Shown: positions 2 to 21,300 of the stretch, in pieces
Numbering within the stretch: position 1 is the stretch's first letter
Layout of the letters: each line of letters starts with the position of its first letter
Source of the DNA: Pirellulaceae bacterium
Lineage (GTDB): Bacteria; Planctomycetota; Planctomycetia; Pirellulales; Pirellulaceae
Assembly: GCA_020852965.1 (NCBI GenBank)
Contig: JADYZV010000043.1
Span: 1 to 33,257, forward strand
Direction of reading: 5' to 3'
DNA length: 33,257 nt
Notes under the pieces: generated by a model
What the model was told of the DNA's origin: nothing
Databases searched by the model: none
What the model saw: only the letters and a program-made list of their open reading frames with translations
Program-made: the position numbers and the translations under genes

Positions 2-1102
2 CACCTCAAGCAGGAAGCCGACGCGGACAAGATTCTGAAGATCGTCCGCGACGAGGTCTTTCCGCACTTTCGCGTGATGGGCGAGTCGACGGCGCTAGCC
101 GCAGGTGCCACTGGCTCCCCTCGCCCCAGTACTCCGGGGAGAGCCCTACGCACCACTGGCTCCCCTCGCCCCAGTACTCAGGGGAGAGGGGCTGGGGGTG
201 AGGGGCCTAGTTTGACCTACACCGGCGACCTGATCGAGCCGCGGCAATGGAAGCATATCAAGAGCGAGATGTTCCACGGCTTCGATTTCGACGTGACCAT
301 GCTTCGCATCGCCGCCATGAACATGATGTTGCACGAGATCGACACGCCCGACATCAACTATCAAGACACGCTCAGCACCAACTTCACCGACCGCAAGGAA
401 ACTCGTCGTTGGGCCTCGGATGCCTTTGACCTGATCCTGGCCAATCCGCCGTTTAAAGGCTCGCTCGACGAAGAGGATGTCCACAAGACGCTCACCGGCA
501 AGGTCAAAACGAAAAAGACCGAACTGCTGTTCATCGTGCTGATACTGCGCATGCTCAAGCTCGGTGGCCGCTGCGCCGTCATCGTTCCCGACGGTGTCAC
601 CTTTGGTTCGTCAAAGGCTCACAAAGAGCTACGCAAGATGCTGATCGAAGAGAACCAACTCGAGGCAATTATCAAACTACCATCTGGTGTCTTCAAACCC
701 TACGCCGGTGTCAGTACCGCCATCTTGCTCTTTACCAAGGGAGGTCAGACCGACAACGTTTTCTTCTTTGACGTACAAGCCGACGGAAAAACGCTCGACG
801 ACAAACGCGACAAGATCGGCGACGACGATGATTGGCAGGACTTGGATGTGTTGCGAAAGGTATGGCCCAAGTGGAACGGTGGCGCTGGGAAGAAGCACTT
901 CAAAGACCGCACCGCAAATGCCTTCTTTGTGCCCAAGTCCGAGATTGAAGAGAACGCCTTTGATCTCTCCATCAACCGTTACAAGGAGGTCGTCCACGAG
1001 GAAGAACAATACGACACGCCCAAGGTTATTCTCGGACGGCTCAAGAAACTGGAAGCTGAGATCGCGACTGATCTCGAGCAACTGGAGGCACTACTCGGAT
1101 GA
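2..1102 (+). CDS. hsdM: Type I restriction-modification DNA methyltransferase subunit (HsdM), 5' end outside window
   Basis: N6-adenine methyltransferase subunit of a type I restriction-modification system. It modifies the sites chosen by HsdS and forms the M2S core. The frame is open from the first base of the window, so the gene starts upstream and the AdoMet-binding motif I is not visible. Seen here are the segment [20 protein letters not shown], the catalytic adenine-methylase motif NPPF (about position 448), then [20 protein letters not shown] and the block [20 protein letters not shown]. These are typical of the HsdM catalytic core and its C-terminal half. The stop overlaps the hsdS start as ATGA (1099-1102), so the two genes are probably translationally coupled. 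Oddity: a duplicated GC-rich palindromic repeat is translated in frame near 108-206, just before the conserved YTGDLIEP segment. Confidence 0.95.
108..206. repeat. Duplicated GC-rich palindromic repeat inserted in frame in hsdM
   Basis: Two near-identical copies of a GC-rich repeat lie inside the open reading frame. Positions 108-134 and 153-179 are identical over 27 nt. The match continues with one mismatch to 143 and 188. The copy distance is 45 nt, exactly 15 codons. The second copy continues into CAGGGGAGAGGGGCTGGGGG and forms an imperfect palindrome centred on AGTACT. It is translated as the low-complexity stretch [10 protein letters not shown] / [10 protein letters not shown]. This type of C/G-rich palindrome resembles dispersed intergenic repeats of planctomycetes (recalled, not searched). 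The frame stays open through it. Confidence 0.85.
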
Positions 1103-2328
1103 GTACAACCAACGGTTACTACGCTTCACCGATCAAGACGCGACTCAGCGATAATGAACCTATTCCAAAAGGCTGGCGTTGGGTTGATCTTCAAGAAGTG
1201 GCACGCCTCGAAAGCGGACACACGCCAAGCCGGAAAATTCCAGAGTATTGGGCAGGTGGGGATGTTCCGTGGCTATCGCTAAAAGATATTCGCGGCATGA
1301 AGTATCGATATGTCGAAGACACGATCGATAAGCCAACTATGCTCGGGATCGACAACTCTTCGGCTCGAATGCTTCCCAAGGGAACGGTTGCTTTCTGTCG
1401 GACGGCATCGGTAGGCAATGTCGCGATATTGGGTCGCGACATGGCTACGAGTCAGGATTTCGTTGATTGGGTTTGTGGGCCAAATCTCTTGCCGGAATAC
1501 CTGTACGAGGCATTCAAAGCGTCAGGGCCAACATTCGCGAGCGAGATGCAGGGCAGCACGCACCAGACGATTTACATGCCCTCGGTTAAGCGGTTCAAAG
1601 TGCTGCTACCGCCGCTGTCGGAGCAGAAGCGGATCGCCGACATCCTCGACAAAGCCGACGCCATCCGCCGTAAACGACAAGAGGAGCTTGACGCACTTTC
1701 CGCTCTTCGCAGTTCGGTTTTTCTTCGGCTCTTTGGTGATCCGCGAATCCAACGGACGGACTGGCACCAAGTCAACTTGGGCGATGTGACCATTCTTGAC
1801 GCACCAATGGTTGACCCAAGGGAAGACGAATACATCGACCTCGTGCATCTTGGACCGGACCGAATTGAAAAGAACACGGGAAGACTGCTACCCGCTTTGA
1901 CCGCACGCGACGAAGGGCTAATCAGCGGGAAGTTCCTGTTCGATGACCGATATCTGCTCTATAGCAAGATTCGACCGTACTTGCGAAAAGTTGCCTTGCC
2001 TCATTTCAAGGGCTTGTGCAGTGCTGATGTGTACCCAATTCGACCTGTCGAGAAAGTCACAACTCGTGAATACCTTTTTGCGCTCCTGATCTCGGAGGCG
2101 TTCTTGTCATACACAACATCGCTTCCATCGCGTGCCAGCATACCCAAGCTAAACCGAAAGGAACTCGCCGCATACACCTTTTGTTTACCGCCCATCGAAT
2201 TGCAACAGCAATACACCGAGACACTCCGTTCTCACGAACACACCACACAGACGTTCTGCAAGGCGTCCGACGAGTCCGAACATCTTTTCAACGCACTCGT
2301 CCAACTCGCTTTCAAGGGAGAGCTGTAA
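1099..2328 (+). CDS. hsdS: Type I restriction-modification specificity subunit (HsdS)
   Basis: DNA-recognition subunit of the type I system, 409 residues, the usual length for two target-recognition domains. TRD1 covers roughly residues 15-175, starting at [19 protein letters not shown], with the characteristic VPWLSLKDI and the end block [21 protein letters not shown] helical spacer follows ([19 protein letters not shown]). TRD2 covers roughly 220-365 and ends in a second [10 protein letters not shown] block plus a helix and the common C-terminus [10 protein letters not shown]. The internal two-fold repeat is what allows recognition of a split DNA target. The start is the ATG of the ATGA overlap with hsdM. 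The target sequence cannot be read from the protein. Confidence 0.95.
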
Positions 2329-2331
2329 CAA

Positions 2332-3534
2332 ATGGCGAAGAAAAAGACACCGGCACGCAACGTTGTTGAGAAGAAACGCGAAGACGGGTCGTTACTCTAC
2401 CGGCTTGATCGAGATAAGAAGGTAGGGGAGTACCACGTCAATACAGATTCATCTCAGAACAAGTACCTGAAGAAAGTGCAGATTGACGGGTTCGCGACTT
2501 TCCCGTCCGCTCTTTATCCGACCGGCTTTGGGTTCAAGGTCTCCGGTGCGCAGCTCGTTGAGCCGCTGCATTCCAAGTATGGCAACAAGCTCGACGTTGT
2601 GCTGTCAGCGACGAAACCATCGTCTGTAAAGAAAACCAAGACACGCGTCACCGTTACCATCAACGCGAACAAGCTTCAGCAAGTCAATCGTGAAGTTTCA
2701 GACGTAAAGCGGGCTCGAAGGAACGAGATCACGGCGCTGGTGCAGGATTTCCTGATTGACCAGTTTCCCAAGGAGTTTACTGGAGCCGCTTCGGGAACGT
2801 TCAAATACCGCCCAAATAAGATCGCCGAAATGTTGGCCGATCAAGACGTTGTCGACAATCTGTCGGACCTAGACCGATTTGCGATTCAGGCTGCGTTCCC
2901 GGATCTAGTGAAGGAAATGGAGTTCAGCCTGCGATCTGCGAAGAAGGTGAAGATCGTCACGGACGGCATCAACATAAGCAAGAAGGTGTATCTGGACAAG
3001 ACCATTGCCGAGTTCGAGAAGAAACTGAAAGGTTCGAGTTCGGAGAACGTTTGGCAGAAATTTCTCCACGAGCACATCCTGACGCTATTGAACACTTACG
3101 CCCACGTCATCGAAAAGAAAAGCGTTGAATTAGACGGAAAGTACCCCGACTTCATGCTGATTGACGCGTATGGGTATCTGGACGTTTATGAAATCAAGAA
3201 GCCACAGACCAAACTTTTGAGTTTCGACAACGGTCGGAAGAACTACTACTGGCACGCTGAAATCTCTCGCGCGACTACTCAAACCGAAAAGTACATGTCG
3301 AGCATCCAGAGGCATCGTTACGAACTCGAAAACAAACTTCGCAAAGAGAGTGTAGATGCACGCATTGTTCGACCTCGCGGATTCATTATTGCTGGGAAAC
3401 GATCTAGCCTTAAAACCGATGACATGCAGGAAGACTTCCGTGTGCTGAATGACAGCCTGAAAAACATCGACCTGATTTGCTTCGATGATCTACTGGACAA
3501 CTTGAAGGCACTTCGGGAGCGGCTTGACAGCTAA
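2332..3534 (+). CDS. Shedu-family (SduA/DUF4263) PD-(D/E)xK nuclease, antiphage defence
   Basis: Putative single-protein phage-defence nuclease of the Shedu type, 400 residues. The C-terminal domain (about 235-395) shows the PD-(D/E)xK nuclease signature: WQKFLHEHIL (241-250, with E247 as a candidate acidic residue), YPDFMLI with P272-D273, and YEIKKP with E287-I-K289. The Shedu-like WHAEISRATTQTEKY segment (307-321) follows. The N-terminal half (1-230) is a lysine-rich, beta-type region without a recognised catalytic motif, as in other Shedu proteins with variable sensor domains. The gene starts 3 nt after the hsdS stop with GGAG at 2317-2320, so it is probably co-transcribed with hsdMS. It could act independently or interact with the RM proteins. 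The family call is from remembered motifs, not a search. Confidence 0.85.
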   Translation: MAKKKTPARNVVEKKREDGSLLYRLDRDKKVGEYHVNTDSSQNKYLKKVQIDGFATFPSALYPTGFGFKVSGAQLVEPLHSKYGNKLDVVLSATKPSSVKKTKTRVTVTINANKLQQVNREVSDVKRARRNEITALVQDFLIDQFPKEFTGAASGTFKYRPNKIAEMLADQDVVDNLSDLDRFAIQAAFPDLVKEMEFSLRSAKKVKIVTDGINISKKVYLDKTIAEFEKKLKGSSSENVWQKFLHEHILTLLNTYAHVIEKKSVELDGKYPDFMLIDAYGYLDVYEIKKPQTKLLSFDNGRKNYYWHAEISRATTQTEKYMSSIQRHRYELENKLRKESVDARIVRPRGFIIAGKRSSLKTDDMQEDFRVLNDSLKNIDLICFDDLLDNLKALRERLDS

Positions 3535-4066: not shown

Positions 4067-4849
4067 ATGGGCAGTAGTAGTGACAACGTTATTGAAGAGC
4101 TCCGCGCGTTGACTGCGAAACAGTCTGCGCAGATCGAGACGCAATCTGCTCAGATTGAGAAGTTGACCGCTCGTATTGGTGAGCTCGAATTGCAACTTGC
4201 CAAGGCGAAGAAAGACTCGACAACTTCGTCCAAACCGCCGTCGAGTGACATTGCCAAACCTAAGCCCAAACAACGCCCAGGGCGACCGAAGAAGCCTCGC
4301 CAAGGGGGGCAGCCGGGACATGAGCGACATTTACGAGAGCCTTTGCCACCGGAGCGTGTCGACGAAACGATCGAATACGAAATCGGTGAAGCAGAGCGGC
4401 AGCGTTTAGGCTTGACGCCAACCGGAGACTTCGACTCGATTCAGCATATTGAACTTCCCGAAACACCCGTCCATGTCACCGAACATCGACTGACTGTGTA
4501 CCGTGATGCGGATGGCAACTTATACGTCCCCGAATGCCCAGAGCTGAAAGGCCCAATTTTCGGACCGCAAATGTTAGCGATGATTGGCTGGCTTAAGTCC
4601 GTGGGGCATTGCAGCTACCCGAACACGAAGCATATTAACATGAACAAGTCCACTGTCCAACGATTTTTTGGGCGGCGCCCTGACCCAAAGGACTCGCGGG
4701 CCTCGTCCACTACCCCAACTTTTAATGTGGTCAAAGCACTAGCACGGATGGCAAAGCCGATGCACGGAAAGCAGGCGACACACATAGGACGGTCAAACAG
4801 CTATTGTATTTCAAGCAGTGTTAGATTTCCTTCGAGATTCCTGGTGTAA
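4067..4849 (+). pseudogene. Truncated IS66-family transposase (TnpC N-terminal part)
   Basis: N-terminal third of an IS66-type transposase. Residues about 8-48 form a coiled coil rich in repeated QSAQIE units. The TSSKPPSSD signature, a basic linker (KPKPKQRPGRPKKPRQGGQP) and GHERH follow, then the region leading to GPQMLAMIGWLKSVGHCSY. After about residue 183 (near 4615) family similarity stops and the frame runs through unrelated sequence to 4849. The DDE catalytic domain is therefore missing and the element cannot transpose on its own. It marks the border between the defence genes and the chromosomal genes to the right. The fusion tail from 4616 to 4849 is not recognised. Start choice: ATG 4067. 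Confidence 0.85.
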
Positions 4850-9585: not shown

Positions 9586-10374
9586 TTAGCGGGCGGTCCA
9601 ACCACCATCAACGGTCAGTAGGCTACCGGTGGTGTAACTGCTGGCGCGGCTGGCGAGGTAGATTGCGGCGCCCTGGATTTCTTCCGCCTTGCCCCATCGC
9701 TCGAGGGCGACGGCACCCACGATGAACTTCTTGGCTTCTTCGCTGTCGGCAATGGGGATATTCATCTCGGTGAGAAATGGTCCAGGGCAGATGGCGTTGC
9801 AGGTGATCCCTACGGGTGCCAGTTCGAGCGCCAGTGCGCGCGTCATTTGGACCACGGCCCCTTTGCTGCTGGCGTAGGGGGTGCGATTGGCCAAGCCAAC
9901 GACGCCCAACGTGCTGGCTAGGTTGATGATGCGTCCGTAGCCGGCTTGCTTCATGTGGGGGACCACTGCCCGGCAAGCATTCCAAGTTCCATGGACGTTG
10001 GTCTTGATCACGTCGTCGAATTGCTCGGGTGTGAGTTCGTCGATCGGTCCACGAATATTGATTCCTGCGCTGTTGACCAGGATATCGACTTTTCCCCATG
10101 CGGCCATTGCGGCGCCGACGGCAGCCTCCATGGCATGAGGTTCGGTCACATCCGCACCAAAGCTAAGGGCTGTGGCACCATAGTGTTGCTCGATGGCTGC
10201 GGCGGCAGTCGCTGCCGTGTCAGCTTGGCGGCTGACCAGCATGACTTGGGCCCCCGCTGAAGCCAGCCCAAAGGCGATAGCCAGCCCCAACCCTTTAGAA
10301 CCTCCAGTCAGCATGGCGGTGCGTCCATCGAGTCGAAATTGATCGATGCCCGGGAGGTCAATGAAGTCGCTCAT
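9586..10374 (-). CDS. Short-chain dehydrogenase/reductase (gluconate 5-dehydrogenase-like)
   Basis: Classical SDR enzyme, 262 residues, NAD(P)-dependent oxidoreductase in the cytoplasm. The cofactor motif is T23-GGSKGLG (TGxxxGxG). NSAG lies at 101-104, N126 in KTNVHG, S154 in NLASTLG, and the YxxxK pair is Y167-x3-K171 (YASSK). The PG motif (NAICPGPFLTEM) and the C-terminal VDGGW are present. Sequence style and length are those of gluconate/2-deoxygluconate dehydrogenases and 3-oxoacyl-ACP reductases, but the substrate cannot be assigned. Start ATG 10374. It is divergent from the ceramidase operon, with a 183-nt gap that must hold both promoters. Confidence 0.9.
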   Translation of the reverse strand: MSDFIDLPGIDQFRLDGRTAMLTGGSKGLGLAIAFGLASAGAQVMLVSRQADTAATAAAAIEQHYGATALSFGADVTEPHAMEAAVGAAMAAWGKVDILVNSAGINIRGPIDELTPEQFDDVIKTNVHGTWNACRAVVPHMKQAGYGRIINLASTLGVVGLANRTPYASSKGAVVQMTRALALELAPVGITCNAICPGPFLTEMNIPIADSEEAKKFIVGAVALERWGKAEEIQGAAIYLASRASSYTTGSLLTVDGGWTAR

Positions 10375-15061: not shown

Positions 15062-15990
15062 TGCAGTCAACCGATCGACGATCATTCCTTTCGACCTCCG
15101 CAGCGGGCGTGGTTGGCTGCGTGGTTGGGGCGGGGAATTCGAATCTCGCGGCAGTCGCTGACGACGCTCCCCTTGCCAATGCCCCTTTTCGCACCTCGGA
15201 GCACGACGCGATTTGGGACTTGCACTGCCATTTTTCGGGTGTGACCGGGGATACTGTCGAGCAGCGAGCGGCGAAGTTGCTTGAGTACGCTGATCGGATG
15301 TACGTTCAACGACTTATCTTTTTCATGGGCTGGCCGTGGTCGTACACTCCGGAACCGGCGGAGTTTCGCAGGCAAAACGATCAAGTGTTGGGAGTGCTCC
15401 AGCGCTGGCCGGACCGCTTGCTCGGCTTTGCCTATTTGAATGCGAGCTTTCCAGACGAGTCGCTGGCGGAAATCGAGCGCTGTATCCAGAACGGACCGAT
15501 GGTGGGTGTCAAGTTATGGGTTGGCAGGAGATGCAACACCGAAGACGTCGATCCGCTCATTCGCCGCTGTGGTGAACTGAATGCATTGGTTTTTCAGCAC
15601 ACGTATTTGAAGATCACGGGAAACCTACCGGGCGAGTCGACACCTCAAGATCTTGCTGAGCTGGCTGCGCGAAATTCCAAGGTGCCGCTCATCTGCGGGC
15701 ACTGTGGCGCGGATTGGACGCTCGGCATTCGCGCCGTTCGCCAGTTCCCAAACGTTTCCGTCGGGATCAGCGGAAGCGATCCCACGGCGGGCTTTGTGGA
15801 AATGGCGGTTCGCGAGTTGGGAGCCGAGCGAGTGCTCTATGGCAGCGATATTGGCGGCCGTAGTTTTGCCTCGCAATTAGCCAAGGTCTATGGCGCGGAT
15901 ATCACCGACGCCCAACGAACTTTAATTCTAGGCGGAAATTTGCGGCGGATGTTGAAGCCGATCATGGACAGCAAGGGGATGCAGCAGTGA
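15061..15990 (+). CDS. Tat-exported amidohydrolase (amidohydrolase_2 family)
   Basis: TIM-barrel metal-dependent hydrolase or decarboxylase-like protein, 309 residues. The N-terminus MQSTDRRSFLSTSAAGVVGC is a twin-arginine signal, suggesting export in folded form. Metal-site candidates are all present: H55-x-H57 (WDLHCHFSG), K151 or E nearby (GVKLWVG), H180 (FQHTYL), H214 (ICGHCGADW) and D263 (LYGSDIGG). The family includes amidohydrolases and nonoxidative decarboxylases, so the reaction cannot be fixed. TGATG overlap with the upstream cytochrome gene and GTGA overlap with the next gene indicate one operon. Confidence 0.87.
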   Translation: MQSTDRRSFLSTSAAGVVGCVVGAGNSNLAAVADDAPLANAPFRTSEHDAIWDLHCHFSGVTGDTVEQRAAKLLEYADRMYVQRLIFFMGWPWSYTPEPAEFRRQNDQVLGVLQRWPDRLLGFAYLNASFPDESLAEIERCIQNGPMVGVKLWVGRRCNTEDVDPLIRRCGELNALVFQHTYLKITGNLPGESTPQDLAELAARNSKVPLICGHCGADWTLGIRAVRQFPNVSVGISGSDPTAGFVEMAVRELGAERVLYGSDIGGRSFASQLAKVYGADITDAQRTLILGGNLRRMLKPIMDSKGMQQ

Positions 15991-16778
15991 TTATCGATGT
16001 CAATGTTTATCTGTCGCGTTGGCCGTTCCGCCGACTGCCACACGACACTCCCGATTCTTTAGTCCGAAAGTTGCGTTTTCACGGAGTCGAACAAGCCTGG
16101 GCGGGAAGCTTCGACGGTCTTCTGCACAAAGATATTGCCAATGTCAATTCACGACTGGTGGCTGATTGCAAACAACACGGTGAAGGCCTACTCGTACCGG
16201 TGGGAGCAGTCAATCCGACTCTCCCGGATTGGCAAGACGATCTGCGGCGATGCCACGAAGTTCATCAGATGCGGGCCATCCGCATTCACCCTAACTACCA
16301 TGGATACAGTCTTGATTCCGCACTATGCGACGAATTGTTCCAGGCGGCGCAGGATCGCAGATTGATCGTTCAGTTGGTGCTCGCCATGGAGGACGTGAGG
16401 GTCCAGCATCCATTGATGCGCGTGGCCGTCGTTGACACAGCCCCCTTGGCTGCGCTGGTCAACAAGTTTCCGCGATTACCATTGGTGATCATGAACAACT
16501 CTGCCGCAGTTCGCACTGGCCAGGCGAGCGAACTTGCGAAGGTTGGCAACACTTTTTTTGAACTATCGCACTTTGAAAGCGTCGGTGGCTTAGAGAACTG
16601 GGTCAAGGAAGTGCCTGTGGAGCGGATACTATTCGGATCCTACTTTCCTTTCTTTAACCTTGAAGCCGCACTTTTGAAGTTCCAAGAATCACAACTGGGT
16701 GGCTTTGCGACGACTACAATCCAAGCGGGCAATGCTAAGGATTTGGTATTCGACTTGCATAGCCAGGAATCGCCCTGA
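15987..16778 (+). CDS. Amidohydrolase-fold protein lacking the usual metal ligands
   Basis: A 263-residue relative of the upstream amidohydrolase, starting with GTG in a GTGA overlap. The fold markers match: the MIIDVNVYLSRWP N-terminal strand, RAIRIHPNYHGY in mid-barrel, VERILFGSYFPFF near the end. The metal-binding HxH is N6-V7-Y8, the His of the FQH strand is replaced by IVQLVL, the GHCG strand reads IMNNSA, and the GSD aspartate is Y219. No signal peptide is visible, unlike its partner. It may be a non-catalytic subunit of the neighbouring enzyme or a protein with a different active site. The conserved length and intact frame argue against simple decay. Confidence 0.8.
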   Translation: MIIDVNVYLSRWPFRRLPHDTPDSLVRKLRFHGVEQAWAGSFDGLLHKDIANVNSRLVADCKQHGEGLLVPVGAVNPTLPDWQDDLRRCHEVHQMRAIRIHPNYHGYSLDSALCDELFQAAQDRRLIVQLVLAMEDVRVQHPLMRVAVVDTAPLAALVNKFPRLPLVIMNNSAAVRTGQASELAKVGNTFFELSHFESVGGLENWVKEVPVERILFGSYFPFFNLEAALLKFQESQLGGFATTTIQAGNAKDLVFDLHSQESP

Positions 16779-16829
16779 TCATCGGGCTGCACCAAGTTGA
16801 TCACACACTTATCGGTTTGCGGAAATCGA

Positions 16830-16993
16830 TCATGGCGTGGAGTGCAATGTGGGGAAGGTCGTTTCAATGTAGTGGCGGAATTGTTGATGAACTCCCTCTT
16901 CGTTCATTCTGGCCATGGAGATTGAGATCGCAGGGATGCGGATTGCTCCCTGGAATCGACTGAGTACCTCCGCTTCATCGAGCGTTAGCTTGG
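16830..16993 (-). pseudogene. Remnant of an M20-family peptidase N-terminus
   Basis: On the - strand, an open frame overlapping the end of the 443-residue protein gene encodes TLDEAEVLSRFQGAIRIPAI and FRHYIETTFPTLHST. These resemble the start of PM20D1 / carboxypeptidase-S-like M20 peptidases (LxxAIRIPTIS ... F..YLE..FP.VH). A stop at 16830-16832 ends the frame after about 50 family residues and the metal-binding parts are absent. The fragment is probably a decayed 3'-truncated gene copy left between two convergent operons. The assignment rests on remembered family consensus. Confidence 0.55.
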
Positions 16994-18316
16994 GAAGAGG
17001 GGCAAGTGCGATTTGTAGAAGCGCAGACTGAGGAGAATGCAAATGGATATCCCGATGGCGATGAAGAGCAGGGCCAATGCGTTTCGTCCGCCGGAGGTTT
17101 CAGCGTTAGGAGCATTCTGGGCAATTTTTGCGGTGGAGCTATGCGCCGTGGCGGAGCTATGCTCAGCCGCCGATTCTGGCGAGTCGCGACCTGGGGGAAT
17201 AGCCAACATTTGGGGTGCATGATCTGTCGCAGCGGACGAGGCAAATGCTGCTGGCGCTTCAAACCCCCAGCCGTCTCCTTGAATGACCGTAGCACTAAGC
17301 TCACCGAATTCGTGGTCGCCTGCAAGCGACAAGGTTGAGTTGACAACATCGCCAACGACATCACGTTCATTGAGTAGACTTTGAGGTCCGCGCTGGATGA
17401 TCCGCTTAACCTCTTCGACGACGAGTGTACTGCGTGGATCAAAGCCGAGGTGATGTGCTATGTCCGCTTGCCGATCTTCCGGCCAAGCGAGAGGCAAATG
17501 CGGAAAATGAACCCAATGGCGCTGCGTGCCGCACTCACAGGCCTGACCGACCAAAACGAGCTGAGCCAGAAGTGATTTCACTCGGATGGCATCACCCTGC
17601 AATGTAGGACCTGCCAGGCGACCGCGCCCGTAGAGCATCGCCAGGCTGGCGGTATCCGCTGGCAGTTCCTGGTTATACATTGCCCAAAGCAGCGTTGCAT
17701 TTTCAGCGCGCTGGCTTGCAGGCACACGAATCACCCTCACGGGTTGGCTAATTGGGCGTGGCAGTAAGCTCGCCGCCTTGCCGAGGGCAGTGATGGCTTG
17801 CGCGATCACCTGCTCAGATTTTTCGTTATTTCCACCGACGGTAGATTCGAACAGCACCAACTGCGCAAAGGAATCCAAGGCTTGCTCACGAAACGTTGCG
17901 ATCAAGGGCAACTGAAGATGCTCCTCTAGAAGTTTCTCCCAACTCGGGTGCTGCTCGATGGAAGCTTCTTCAAGTAGTCGGACCTCCCCATCGTCGCGCC
18001 TTAGCCAGCACGACCAGTCGTGGTCGCTGTTACGCAACCAAGCTCGCTGTGCGTCCGTCGGATCATGAAGATTAGCGAGCGTCCCGCATTGGAATTTCAA
18101 ATTCCAAACGAGGCAGTTGGACTCGGTTGCTTGTTCATTCAATTCGCGTTGGGCTTCGCGAAGTTGCGTCGCGTCCAACCGGTCATGAAATAACACTATT
18201 AACTGCAATTTGGGGGCGCCGAATTCCACGAATCCGATATCGCGAACCGTATAATCACAGGCCGCAGCCAGCGCGGACGACCACAGCAGCGTTAGTAGGA
18301 AGATGAAGCTTCTCAC
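16985..18316 (-). CDS. Exported, C-terminally membrane-anchored protein of unknown function
   Basis: 443 residues with an N-terminal signal peptide (MRSFIFLLTLLWSSALAAAC) and a single C-terminal membrane segment (about 412-432, ALALLFIAIGISICILLSLR) followed by a short basic tail. Between them I recognise no catalytic motif. There is an early CDYTVRDIGFVEFG segment and a Ser/Ala-rich linker at about 350-405. The first 100 residues (LQLIVLFHDRLDATQLREAQ and following) could be a thioredoxin-like or periplasmic sensor domain, but this is not established. The start overlaps the stop of the upstream propeller gene as ATGA (18313-18316), so the two proteins are co-translated and probably act at the same membrane. 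The C-terminus overlaps the M20 remnant. Confidence 0.8.
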   Translation of the reverse strand: MRSFIFLLTLLWSSALAAACDYTVRDIGFVEFGAPKLQLIVLFHDRLDATQLREAQRELNEQATESNCLVWNLKFQCGTLANLHDPTDAQRAWLRNSDHDWSCWLRRDDGEVRLLEEASIEQHPSWEKLLEEHLQLPLIATFREQALDSFAQLVLFESTVGGNNEKSEQVIAQAITALGKAASLLPRPISQPVRVIRVPASQRAENATLLWAMYNQELPADTASLAMLYGRGRLAGPTLQGDAIRVKSLLAQLVLVGQACECGTQRHWVHFPHLPLAWPEDRQADIAHHLGFDPRSTLVVEEVKRIIQRGPQSLLNERDVVGDVVNSTLSLAGDHEFGELSATVIQGDGWGFEAPAAFASSAATDHAPQMLAIPPGRDSPESAAEHSSATAHSSTAKIAQNAPNAETSGGRNALALLFIAIGISICILLSLRFYKSHLPLFPS

Positions 18317-21300
18317 GGTTGCATTCTCGTTCCAAAGCCGACCGACGTTTCAATCCATCCACCACAGGAACAACCGCCGCCCCCCTCGGGCGAAAGCAAC
18401 ATTCCCTCGGCCGGAATGGTACTGATCCAACAGTCTGGCCGCAGACGCTCCCATCGTGTGGCGTCTATTGAATTGCCGTCCCACATGGAAAGGTTTCCAG
18501 CCCGTAGGAATATGGCATTACTGGTGCAGGTGTAGGTGCCACATTGATGGCCGACGGGGAAGGTTTTGGACAATACTTTCCCGCTCGTTCGATCCAGAGT
18601 GAGTGGGCGGAGATAGATTTTGTCGCCGACGATAGCTGGGCGCGACAAGTGCTTCCCGTGGTTATCGGATTCCCAGCCATACTTTCCGCGCCACTGCATT
18701 TCGCCGGAGTCCAATGCGAGCGAGTACACCGCAAACTCGCCCTCGGCGCTGGTTTCTAGCAAGTATTGGTCCCTGGTGCTCACGCCATACATGGCCGATA
18801 CACCGGCCAGTGGTTTAGCCGGCGACTCCCACTGCAGTTTGCCGGTGTGTTTATCGAGAGCAACGATAAATAGGTTATCCCACAACTCGTCGCCATCCAA
18901 TCGTCGCGACTGGGCATCACGGAGTCGCTCTGAGCGGCATTCCGCAAAGACGATCTTTTCGTCGGAAATGGCGATGGTCGGATTGATGACCAGTGCTGAG
19001 TCATAGCGCCAGCGCTCGACACCTGTCTCGCTGTCAACGGCGAACAATGTGTCTGAGGCGACTTTCTTGGCGTTTTCACCGTCCTTGGCATCGTACCAAA
19101 ATTCGTTGCCCCAATATCCGGTAAAGGCGGCCGATGGCGCAACGCTGCTACCGATCAGCAGATCGTCCTGGCGGGAGACAAATCCCCAATTCATTGGGCC
19201 GCAGTCATTTGGTAACGCGGTAAACTCTGCCAACTGCTCTCCAGTCGCTCCGTCAATCTTTAGGCAACTATCTTCGACGGCCACGTATACCGCATGCGAA
19301 TCACAACACCAATTGGAGCAATCGCGCGGAACATTGAAGCGGACCATCTTCGGCATTTCCTTAGCCCACAGAATAGTGCCATTGTGAGCGTCCAAGCCAA
19401 GCAAGCGATGGTGACCTTGCAGATAGAGACGCCCATTGGATGCGAGCGGTGAAGGCTTGCGATTTCCTCGATCGGATTGGTACCGCGGCCCGGGACGCCC
19501 CGCCCAAATGACTTGCAATTGATCCGCGTAAGTTGCCCCCCCAAGCGTTTCACCGGCAAATGCCGTGTTGTCCGCCATGCCATACATGTGCGTCCAGCCG
19601 GCCGAGCCTTCTAATCGCGGTTTGCGATGCACCGCGAGCTGCTGGCCACCCGCTGCCGCAGGAGAAATGTCGATGTAGCCTTTCGTCTCTGGATGCGTGC
19701 GATTCTGCTTCCGAGCGCTAATATAAAGACCTCCTGGCGCGAGGCAGCGTTCCAGAGCGGTGAAGGCATCTTCCGCCCAGTCGGTGCTGAGCAAAGTTGA
19801 AGATTCTTTGCCGTCGACGTTGAACCAGATCATGTTCAAGCAGTTGTCGGGAATCTTGGGCAAGTCCGCGAGCGAATGAACGCTGATCGGCCTACCATAC
19901 AGCTTTCGCTCAAGGAGCGTTTTCCGCAGTTGCTGGACCTGCGCTTCACCCTCCAATAGCACCACGACATCCAATCCCGACTCGTGGCATAATGCTTCCG
20001 CCGTGTATGAATCCGTGTTGTCTTGCACTACCACAGCGATACCTCGAGAATTTGTCCAAGGTATCGCCTTCATCATTGCGGCAGCGGCGGAGTAGCGCGG
20101 GCCTGGCTCTGGCTTCGGAAGCAGCGTGCGCGCGTAATCGAAATGGCCATCGCACTGATACTCGGCACTCTTGAGCCAACTTGAACCCTGTTGCTGTTCG
20201 ATGCAAAACCGCACTACTTCCCGTTGATCCACATCGCGGATCAGCCAGCGGTGACGCTGCCTAGGCTCCTGAGTGGCTTCGTTCGCATTCGACTCGTTCA
20301 CGGTCGCGTTCTCCGCTTGGGCGGAACCGGACAGGATTACTAGTCGACAAGTGGTCGGTTGCTCGGTCGCCCACTGGATTTGAGCCGTTGTGGGCTGGAT
20401 GAACTCCATGTGTAGTCCGTCCAGTGCAAATTGATCTTCGCCCCGCACTGGGGCCGCGTGCGTCAGCGTTTCTTGCGGTGATTCTTGCGGTGGTGTGGCG
20501 GTTGTGGCAGGCTCCTCCACGGAAACCGGCAGCGACTGGTACGAAGTCAGCTCGATCCAATTCTTATTGTTCACGGAAGCGTTGCTGGCGAGCGTGTCGG
20601 AAGGTGCATGGGCGAACACAGCCAACTGCCCACGATCTGTGCTGACGACCAGGTGCCCTTGCGCCGCCGCCAGTCCACGGCCGCGTCCCAGGAGGGGGCT
20701 GGCCCATTGCAATTCGCCACTCTCAGCCGAAATGGCTGCCACGTATCCGTCTCCCCCTACGAACAGGGTTGAGCCAGCCAGGATCAGTTCCTCTCCCGCT
20801 CGCAAAGCGATTTTCCAAATTGGCTGCTGAGCGGAACGGTCAATGGCCGTGACCCCTTTCGGATCTAGTAGATAGGCTACACCATGATGGACCACCATCG
20901 AAATCCCGTTCTCGAAACTCGCAAAATGTTCTCGAGAATCCAAGCGGGAGCCCGTGAGCCAACCCGCCTTGTTGCCAGGACCATGAAGCACTTCGTTTTG
21001 TTCTGTCAACAGCGCAAATGAACCCCCACCGCCAGCCAGGGCACCCACTGGCTTGCCATCGGCTCGGGCGAACAACTGGGGCGGCGCACGGCCTTGGGGC
21101 GAGACGACATGTTCCTCACCGAGCAACAGTGGCCCTTCGATCGTATAGCCCAGTCCTAAATCCTGTTTCCAGGCCAGCTCACCGCTATCGGTTTGCAGAG
21201 CACACAGCAGGGAAGGTCGCCATGGGAAAACCCCAGCTCCGGCGATGAGCGTCGATCTGGATTCGTCCAGCAGGACTCCCGTCCGGACAGGCTGGAACGA

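Follow-up and report, generated by a model that had tools for sequence, protein, structure and literature searches.

Type I restriction-modification (RM) is commonly regarded as an enzyme that is always on and acts alone. It is already known that effectors can be housed in hsd operons (PrrC), that Shedu can accompany BREX and that nuclease-bearing GHKL genes occur near RM genes. In EcoprrI the extra effector PrrC is carried in the hsd operon, where it has been portrayed as a second defensive line (PMC2610378, PMC3710099, PMC12707154). BREX systems with auxiliary effectors that include Shedu have been reported (PMC12839542), and genes of the paraMORC3 type, with GHKL and nuclease domains, have been placed in RM neighbourhoods (Iyer 2008, PMC2292703). 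On the regulatory side, CARF-NtrC proteins are often associated with RM and were predicted to work through sigma54-dependent activation (Makarova 2014, PMC4012209); in one study oligoadenylates failed to activate E. coli RtcR (PMC9650030). For Shedu itself, a review reports binding of EcSduA to DNA ends and nicking at a set distance from them (PMC12904381).

The stretch of DNA analysed here (the window, 33,257 nt) is the entire contig C43 of an 8.37-Mb, 199-contig genome of a Pirellulaceae bacterium. The open reading frame 3 nt downstream of hsdS, on the same strand, had been called a Shedu-type nuclease in a first-pass annotation, and Pfam, PADLOC and solved-structure matches agree on this call. 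Profile comparison of the C-terminal region returned SduA_C (PF14082; residues 235-388, E 7.4e-30, 104.6 bits against a cut-off of 27), the protein matches 21 PADLOC SduA models (best E 2.9e-27), and the solved Shedu proteins 8ti8 (E 3.4e-11) and 8ps4 (E 4.2e-11) align to its C-terminal part. When the window protein was aligned with four homologues of 34-89% identity, the PD-(D/E)xK residues named in that annotation (P272, D273, E287 and K289) were invariant, as were W307, E310, Q317 and Y321 of the accompanying WHAE...QxxxY segment. By sequence criteria, then, the reading frame is a real Shedu-family protein and a predicted DNA-cutting anti-virus gene. Its N-terminal 220 residues found no family in Pfam and only chance-level matches (E > 1) in the PDB, and the N-terminal part diverges faster than the nuclease domain (about 47% versus about 72% identity to the homologue in Rhodopirellula sp. 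JC639). AlphaFold2 run on three sequences gave a mean pLDDT of 49.8, most blocks within residues 11-150 scoring about 70-89. Searches with the Shedu protein found no match among phage records and no relative among IMG/VR viral contigs, the latter at a reach of close relatives. The same genome encodes a second Shedu-domain gene near one end of contig C81 (109504-109935), and the region fetched around it showed no hsd gene.

Table 1. Features of the window (positions 1 to 33,257 of contig C43) and contents of the slot after hsdS in related operons
Feature	Position or locus	Strand	Details
Exact overlap with the 3' end of contig C143, same genome	1..127	.	127 bases
hsdM, 3' part, open at contig start	2..1102	+	N6_Mtase; SAM motif I absent, NPPF kept
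Direct repeat in hsdM frame	90..179	+	two 45-nt units, at the site of the missing HsdM residues
hsdS, type I specificity subunit	1099..2328	+	residues 22-409 on positions 5-391 of a 391-position PADLOC model
shedu (SduA family)	2332..3534	+	400 aa; nuclease domain residues 235-388
PD-(D/E)xK core codons	3145..3198	+	P272-D273 ... E287-x-K289
DUF6444 gene	4067..4849	+	next downstream of shedu
Slot after hsdS	window, JC639		Shedu
Slot after hsdS	G437		patatin phospholipase, then CD-NTase
Slot after hsdS	G496		unrecognised gene, then patatin and CD-NTase
Slot after hsdS	G696		5'-nucleotidase
Slot after hsdS	G721		201-aa ORF, then 5'-nucleotidase
Slot after hsdS	G802		unrecognised gene, then PD-Lambda-3_B
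Slot after hsdS	G809		TIR-like fragment, under cut-off
Slot after hsdS	G821		PIN-like gene, under cut-off
Slot after hsdS	G834		gene of no recognised family

Judged by gene order and spacing, shedu is part of the hsd operon: hsdM and hsdS overlap by 4 nt and 3 nt separate the hsdS stop from shedu (Table 1). The HsdS protein contains two PF01420 stretches, that is, two target-recognition domains, and covers its PADLOC model almost fully. The earlier wording that the nuclease is "fused" to a type I RM operon holds for the order of the genes; the proteins are separate. That no hsdR is visible is likewise true of the window, as an effect of the contig end, the window being the whole of C43. Contig C143 of the same genome ends in the very 127 bases with which the window begins, probably an overlap of the type left by a graph assembler between adjoining contigs, and this identity places the missing genes directly upstream. 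C143 carries, in order, a regulator (sigma54-activator plus HTH), two hsdR reading frames, a DUF1016 gene and, at its extreme end, a lone hsdM start; the suggestion that hsdR lies upstream of the window was therefore correct. An hsdR on contig C47 was rejected as the operon partner: C47 carries a separate set of type I genes, and the HsdM encoded there shares only 28% identity with that of JC639. Downstream of shedu, no gene of the AAA_15 kind that follows shedu in JC639 was found among the window proteins scanned up to position 10374, and the next gene, DUF6444, is one we take to be IS66-type transposon-associated.

An intact operon of the same composition is present in JC639 (L032), whose contig matches G634:C252 and which belongs to the same family as the window's genome; its Shedu, found in a single scan of named genomes that yielded two relatives only, is 58% identical to the window's. 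The order is regulator, hsdR (1133 aa), hsdM (544), hsdS (399), shedu (398), an AAA_15 ATPase, then one more gene and a NucS-like one. Each junction between hsdR and the AAA gene is a 4-nt overlap or a 5-nt gap, and HsdR is complete by its Pfam domains. Identity between the two genomes is 48% for the regulator, 46-49% for HsdR, and 43% (N part) and 62% (C part) for HsdM. These values, with that for Shedu, are of one order along the operon, HsdS excepted (28%), a divergence as expected for a specificity subunit. In JC639, as with PrrC, the effector gene is embedded in a type I hsd operon. The hsdM-hsdS-shedu order thus recurs, as an intact operon here and as an hsdS scar beside the orthologue in genome G332 described below.

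The RM genes of the window's own genome look broken, as assembled. The first hsdR frame corresponds to residues 1-350 of JC639 HsdR and the second, in another frame, to residues from about 587-611 to 1129, so that about 351-610 are absent with a frame change; the loss removes the first helicase domain (ResIII/SNF2, JC639 359-571) and leaves Helicase_C. The DUF1016 gene contains one in-frame stop. The hsdM frame is open, yet it lacks the residues that in the HsdM of genome G437 run from about 105 to 200 or beyond (237 by another alignment). SAM motif I, present in the JC639 and G437 proteins, is missing from the window HsdM, in which NPPF is retained. The whole of this lesion falls within the window, so it does not depend on the C143/C43 join. 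The 19-base core of the 45-nt repeats found at the site has no other copy in the window with up to three mismatches allowed. Both hsdS and shedu are full length. The locus carries a warning: an hsdM-hsdS-shedu array that seems to lack hsdR can be a decayed operon and not a new enzyme.

To place the operon among its relatives we searched with HsdM, obtaining matches in 21 of 392 genomes of the phylum (E <= 1e-60) and in 23 of 397 genomes of the class (E <= 1e-120), and among the matches listed 13 and 16 neighbourhoods, respectively, were fetched. At least 13 operons, including those of JC639 and the window's genome, have a regulator before hsdR-hsdM (a fragment in G726); the remaining fetched regions have none. 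Three contigs (G226, G806 and G726) end within or soon after hsdS or hsdM, leaving ten informative slots. In nine of the ten, the start of a reading frame of 90 aa or more falls within -4 to +5 nt of the hsdS stop, a figure that stands without a chance control; in G821 the corresponding frame starts at +56 nt. What occupies the slot varies from operon to operon (Table 1): the first gene belongs to a recognised family above cut-off in 4/10 loci, and one of the first two does in 7/10. Relatives of the JC639 AAA gene lie further downstream in G437, G496, G696 and G834, with a fragment in G809. The closest chassis relative found for the window is G437 (regulator 75%, HsdR 76-85%, HsdM 88-90% identity), in which the patatin/CD-NTase pair stands where the window has Shedu. 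Set beside JC639, this means that one machine carries different cargoes and that one cargo also occurs on a machine less closely related.

Some of the loci examined have features of their own. In G437 (L100, 7533-12441) patatin and CD-NTase, a CBASS-type pair, directly follow hsdS in a CARF-regulated type I RM operon in which a Fic gene separates hsdM from hsdS. In G290 (L106, 6363-7271) a type I operon with an interrupted hsdM frame has HamA (Hachiman) after its hsdS. The cargo of G809 (L118, 8730-10338) seems half deleted, with a TIR-like fragment and a 106-aa AAA piece preceding a 305-aa downstream gene.

The regulator matches the PADLOC model RtcR_PspF2 CARF_AAA_HTH (PDLC01995, E 2.4e-154 over 33-552); Pfam recognises its Sigma54_activat and HTH_8 domains, and the CARF assignment comes through PADLOC models only. 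We scanned for a sigma54-type promoter using the consensus TGGCAC-N5-TTGC with weights of our own (maximum 18). A site was present 13-53 nt after the regulator stop codon and scored at least 16/18 in 11 of 12 loci, G726 with its regulator fragment being left out; four were perfect, among them the predicted site of the window's genome, TGGCACACCAGTTGC, 40 nt after the regulator stop. The remaining locus, G226, scored 14, a value that shuffles reach in 29%. By comparison, 14 control operons, type I or related, that lack the regulator scored 15 at most in the 200 nt preceding their first gene (two of these controls, L129 and L130, have their best site in common and are thus not independent). Upstream of the regulator genes themselves nothing exceeded the shuffle level in 10 of 12 loci, with lower values in G437 (0.06) and G809 (0.025). 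A sigma54 gene is encoded in the window's genome (PF04552, contig C36). Simple patterns found the GAFTGA loop as GAFSGA in the window's genome and did not find it in G437 and G696, nor a Walker A motif in the regulators of G809 and G834.

How often does Shedu adjoin RM genes? SduA_C occurs at 26 places in 21 of the 392 phylum genomes, corresponding to 25 genes (two G138 places are one gene). We examined neighbours with Methylase_S (PF01420) in 24 genomes and with HsdM, HsdS and EcoEI-type HsdR queries on the regions of all 25 genes, a count that would miss a lone hsdR of another class and in which some regions end at short contigs. Genes of the hsd type adjoin four of the 25: the window, G463, G338 and G153, the domains of G153 (26.1) and G338 (21.3) scoring under the Pfam whole-protein cut-off of 27. 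In G463 a shortened HsdR is followed by an HsdS-like fusion whose frame overlaps shedu by 8 nt. In G338 (L078, 1426-6916) the weak SduA_C-like gene is flanked by hsdS and hsdR, 3-4 nt from each. In G153 (L071, 5030-9625) hsdM-hsdS come immediately after the gene of a GHKL ATPase whose C-terminal domain resembles SduA_C and falls just short of the cut-off; a NACHT-like protein is encoded upstream. On plasmids, none of 13 Shedus inspected (of 16 matches) had annotated hsd neighbours, in a plasmid gene table that is incomplete, and one of the 13 lies inside a BREX operon: on Methylomonas koyamae plasmid NZ_AP019778.1 (L094) the gene sits between a PDDEXK-annotated nuclease and pglZ of a BREX-1 operon, with overlaps of 8 nt and 4 nt. 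Homologues with RM neighbours therefore exist, and they are a minority: RM linkage was seen for 3/24 of the other phylum genes, none being detected beside 21/24, and for 0/13 of the plasmid genes.

The history of the window's Shedu can be followed through its closest orthologue found, in the one-contig genome G332 from another family of the class, which is 89% identical over 400 aa. HsdM, HsdS and EcoEI-type HsdR queries detected no hsd gene adjoining it, and the sole HsdS match of that genome lies about 3 Mb away. The DNA match between the two loci begins 45 nt before the shedu start codon, within the hsdS tail. This hsdS-tail scar scores 23, whereas none of 2000 random placements at the same locus exceeded 0, so that the G332 copy most likely descended from an hsdS-linked shedu. 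Comparison of the two genes gave dN 0.066 and dS 1.26, which points to purifying selection on shedu. The more distant homologues G159 and L033 (the latter on a contig of just 5 kb) have no hsd genes next to them. In G332 (L024), two reading frames some 2-5 kb downstream of Shedu, 15757-17031 and 17571-18893, look DNA methyltransferase-like by eye.

We consider it probable, at roughly two chances in three, that Shedu is an exchangeable backup cargo in the slot directly after hsdS of inducible planctomycete type I RM operons that have their own CARF-sigma54 activator. In such an operon an infection or damage signal would release the CARF brake, and sigma54 RNA polymerase would then produce hsdR-hsdM-hsdS-cargo as one transcript. 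The RM enzyme would form the first line and the cargo the second, the Shedu cargo being a PD-(D/E)xK nuclease that may attack free DNA ends, possibly those made by HsdR. If the window Shedu acts like EcSduA, HsdR breaks would feed it; end sensing cannot be assumed for it, since its N-terminal domain does not align to the solved Shedu proteins. In the window's genome, with the RM part decayed, Shedu would act without RM. Only tentatively would we extend this to a phage-inducible chassis with an effector socket, in which the activator and HsdRMS stay constant, the hsdS-coupled genes are swapped (Shedu, CBASS-type cyclase-phospholipase, 5'-nucleotidase, TIR-like, PIN-like, PD-Lambda-3) and the HsdS/HsdM complex or cut ends might serve as a common trigger for unrelated effectors.

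Some observations speak against exchangeable cargo. Within this Shedu subgroup shedu was found to follow hsdS in two operons only, one intact (JC639) and one decayed (the window), plus one scar, and the G332, G159 and L033 Shedus are not beside hsd genes. The shuffle-level promoter score of G226, the GAFTGA and Walker A motifs that simple patterns missed or found altered in some regulators, and the small share of slots (4/10) that open with a gene of a recognised family also weigh against it. These solitary copies, together with the 0/13 inspected plasmid Shedus with annotated hsd neighbours and a shedu kept where the window's RM genes are broken, would suit a stand-alone Shedu that landed after hsdS by chance in a defence island and works alone. 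We hold this rather unlikely: the two operons share the position and a gap of 3-5 nt although their Shedus are only 58% identical, the G332 copy bears its hsdS scar, a reading frame is tightly coupled to hsdS in nine of the ten informative chassis loci (again without a chance control), and one sigma54-type site heads the operon.

Dependence on the Hsd proteins could also be closer than backup. The Hsd complex might silence Shedu until a phage anti-restriction protein releases it, a special case of exchangeable cargo whose odds overlap with it. The gene is placed as prrC is in the type Ic hsd locus (PMC2610378, PMC3710099), and the cargo of other chassis operons includes cell-killing effector families (patatin; TIR-like under cut-off). 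A guard of this sort is nevertheless unlikely in our judgement, because the 89% identical G332 Shedu persists with no adjacent hsd genes and the window Shedu persists beside broken HsdM and HsdR, so that Shedu seems to be tolerated without the Hsd complex. The first-pass annotation had raised, as one of its options, that Shedu replaces or supplements HsdR, and had mentioned a methylation-guided or methylation-sensitive Shedu; in its strongest form this reading has Shedu replace HsdR under guidance by HsdM/HsdS methylation status. It is true that hsdR in the window's genome lacks its first helicase domain while shedu is intact. Replacement by design is very improbable all the same, as the hsdR gene is there, broken, before hsdM, and the intact JC639 relative has its full-length HsdR beside Shedu. 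With hsdR broken and HsdM devoid of SAM motif I, an enzyme that should methylate nothing, Shedu is unlikely to be guided by methylation or sensitive to it in this genome. That annotation is thus partly supported overall, and exchangeable cargo remains the reading that we prefer.

Among titles and abstract openings of the matches listed in literature searches on Shedu/SduA/DUF4263 with restriction and on RtcR with type I restriction, the present arrangement was not described. The window protein shares its C-terminal domain, catalytic residues and size with the Shedu (SduA) family, which has variable N-terminal domains; this member differs in an N-terminal part that has no Pfam match and chance-level PDB matches only, and in its location as cargo of a type I RM operon. 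As in the EcoprrI type Ic system with its PrrC anticodon nuclease, an extra effector gene sits inside the hsd operon. Unlike that system, the effector is a predicted DNase, it follows hsdS and the slot content varies between related operons; the window protein is not a PrrC-type anticodon nuclease (ABC plus HEPN), having a PD-(D/E)xK SduA_C domain instead. BREX with auxiliary effectors (PMC12839542), and the BREX operon of M. koyamae, likewise put Shedu and a PDDEXK nuclease beside a methyltransferase system, but with pglX/pglZ in place of type I RM and no CARF-sigma54 regulator among the five genes shown. ParaMORC3 (PMC2292703) brings a nuclease domain of like kind next to RM genes, as in G153, and has a GHKL ATPase domain, whereas the window protein has no GHKL Pfam match. 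The regulator belongs to the class (RtcR_PspF2) of the RtcR-like CARF-NtrC proteins treated in the available text of Makarova 2014 (PMC4012209); the Shedu, the slot after hsdS and the promoter sites are features of the present operons that are absent from that text. These little-understood RM-linked CARF-sigma54 regulators thereby gain a concrete candidate promoter. A promoter predicted to be inducible, a type I enzyme and a slot for diverse anti-phage effectors are here united in one operon family, and this combination makes possible a direct test of RM as a sensor or trigger for other defences.
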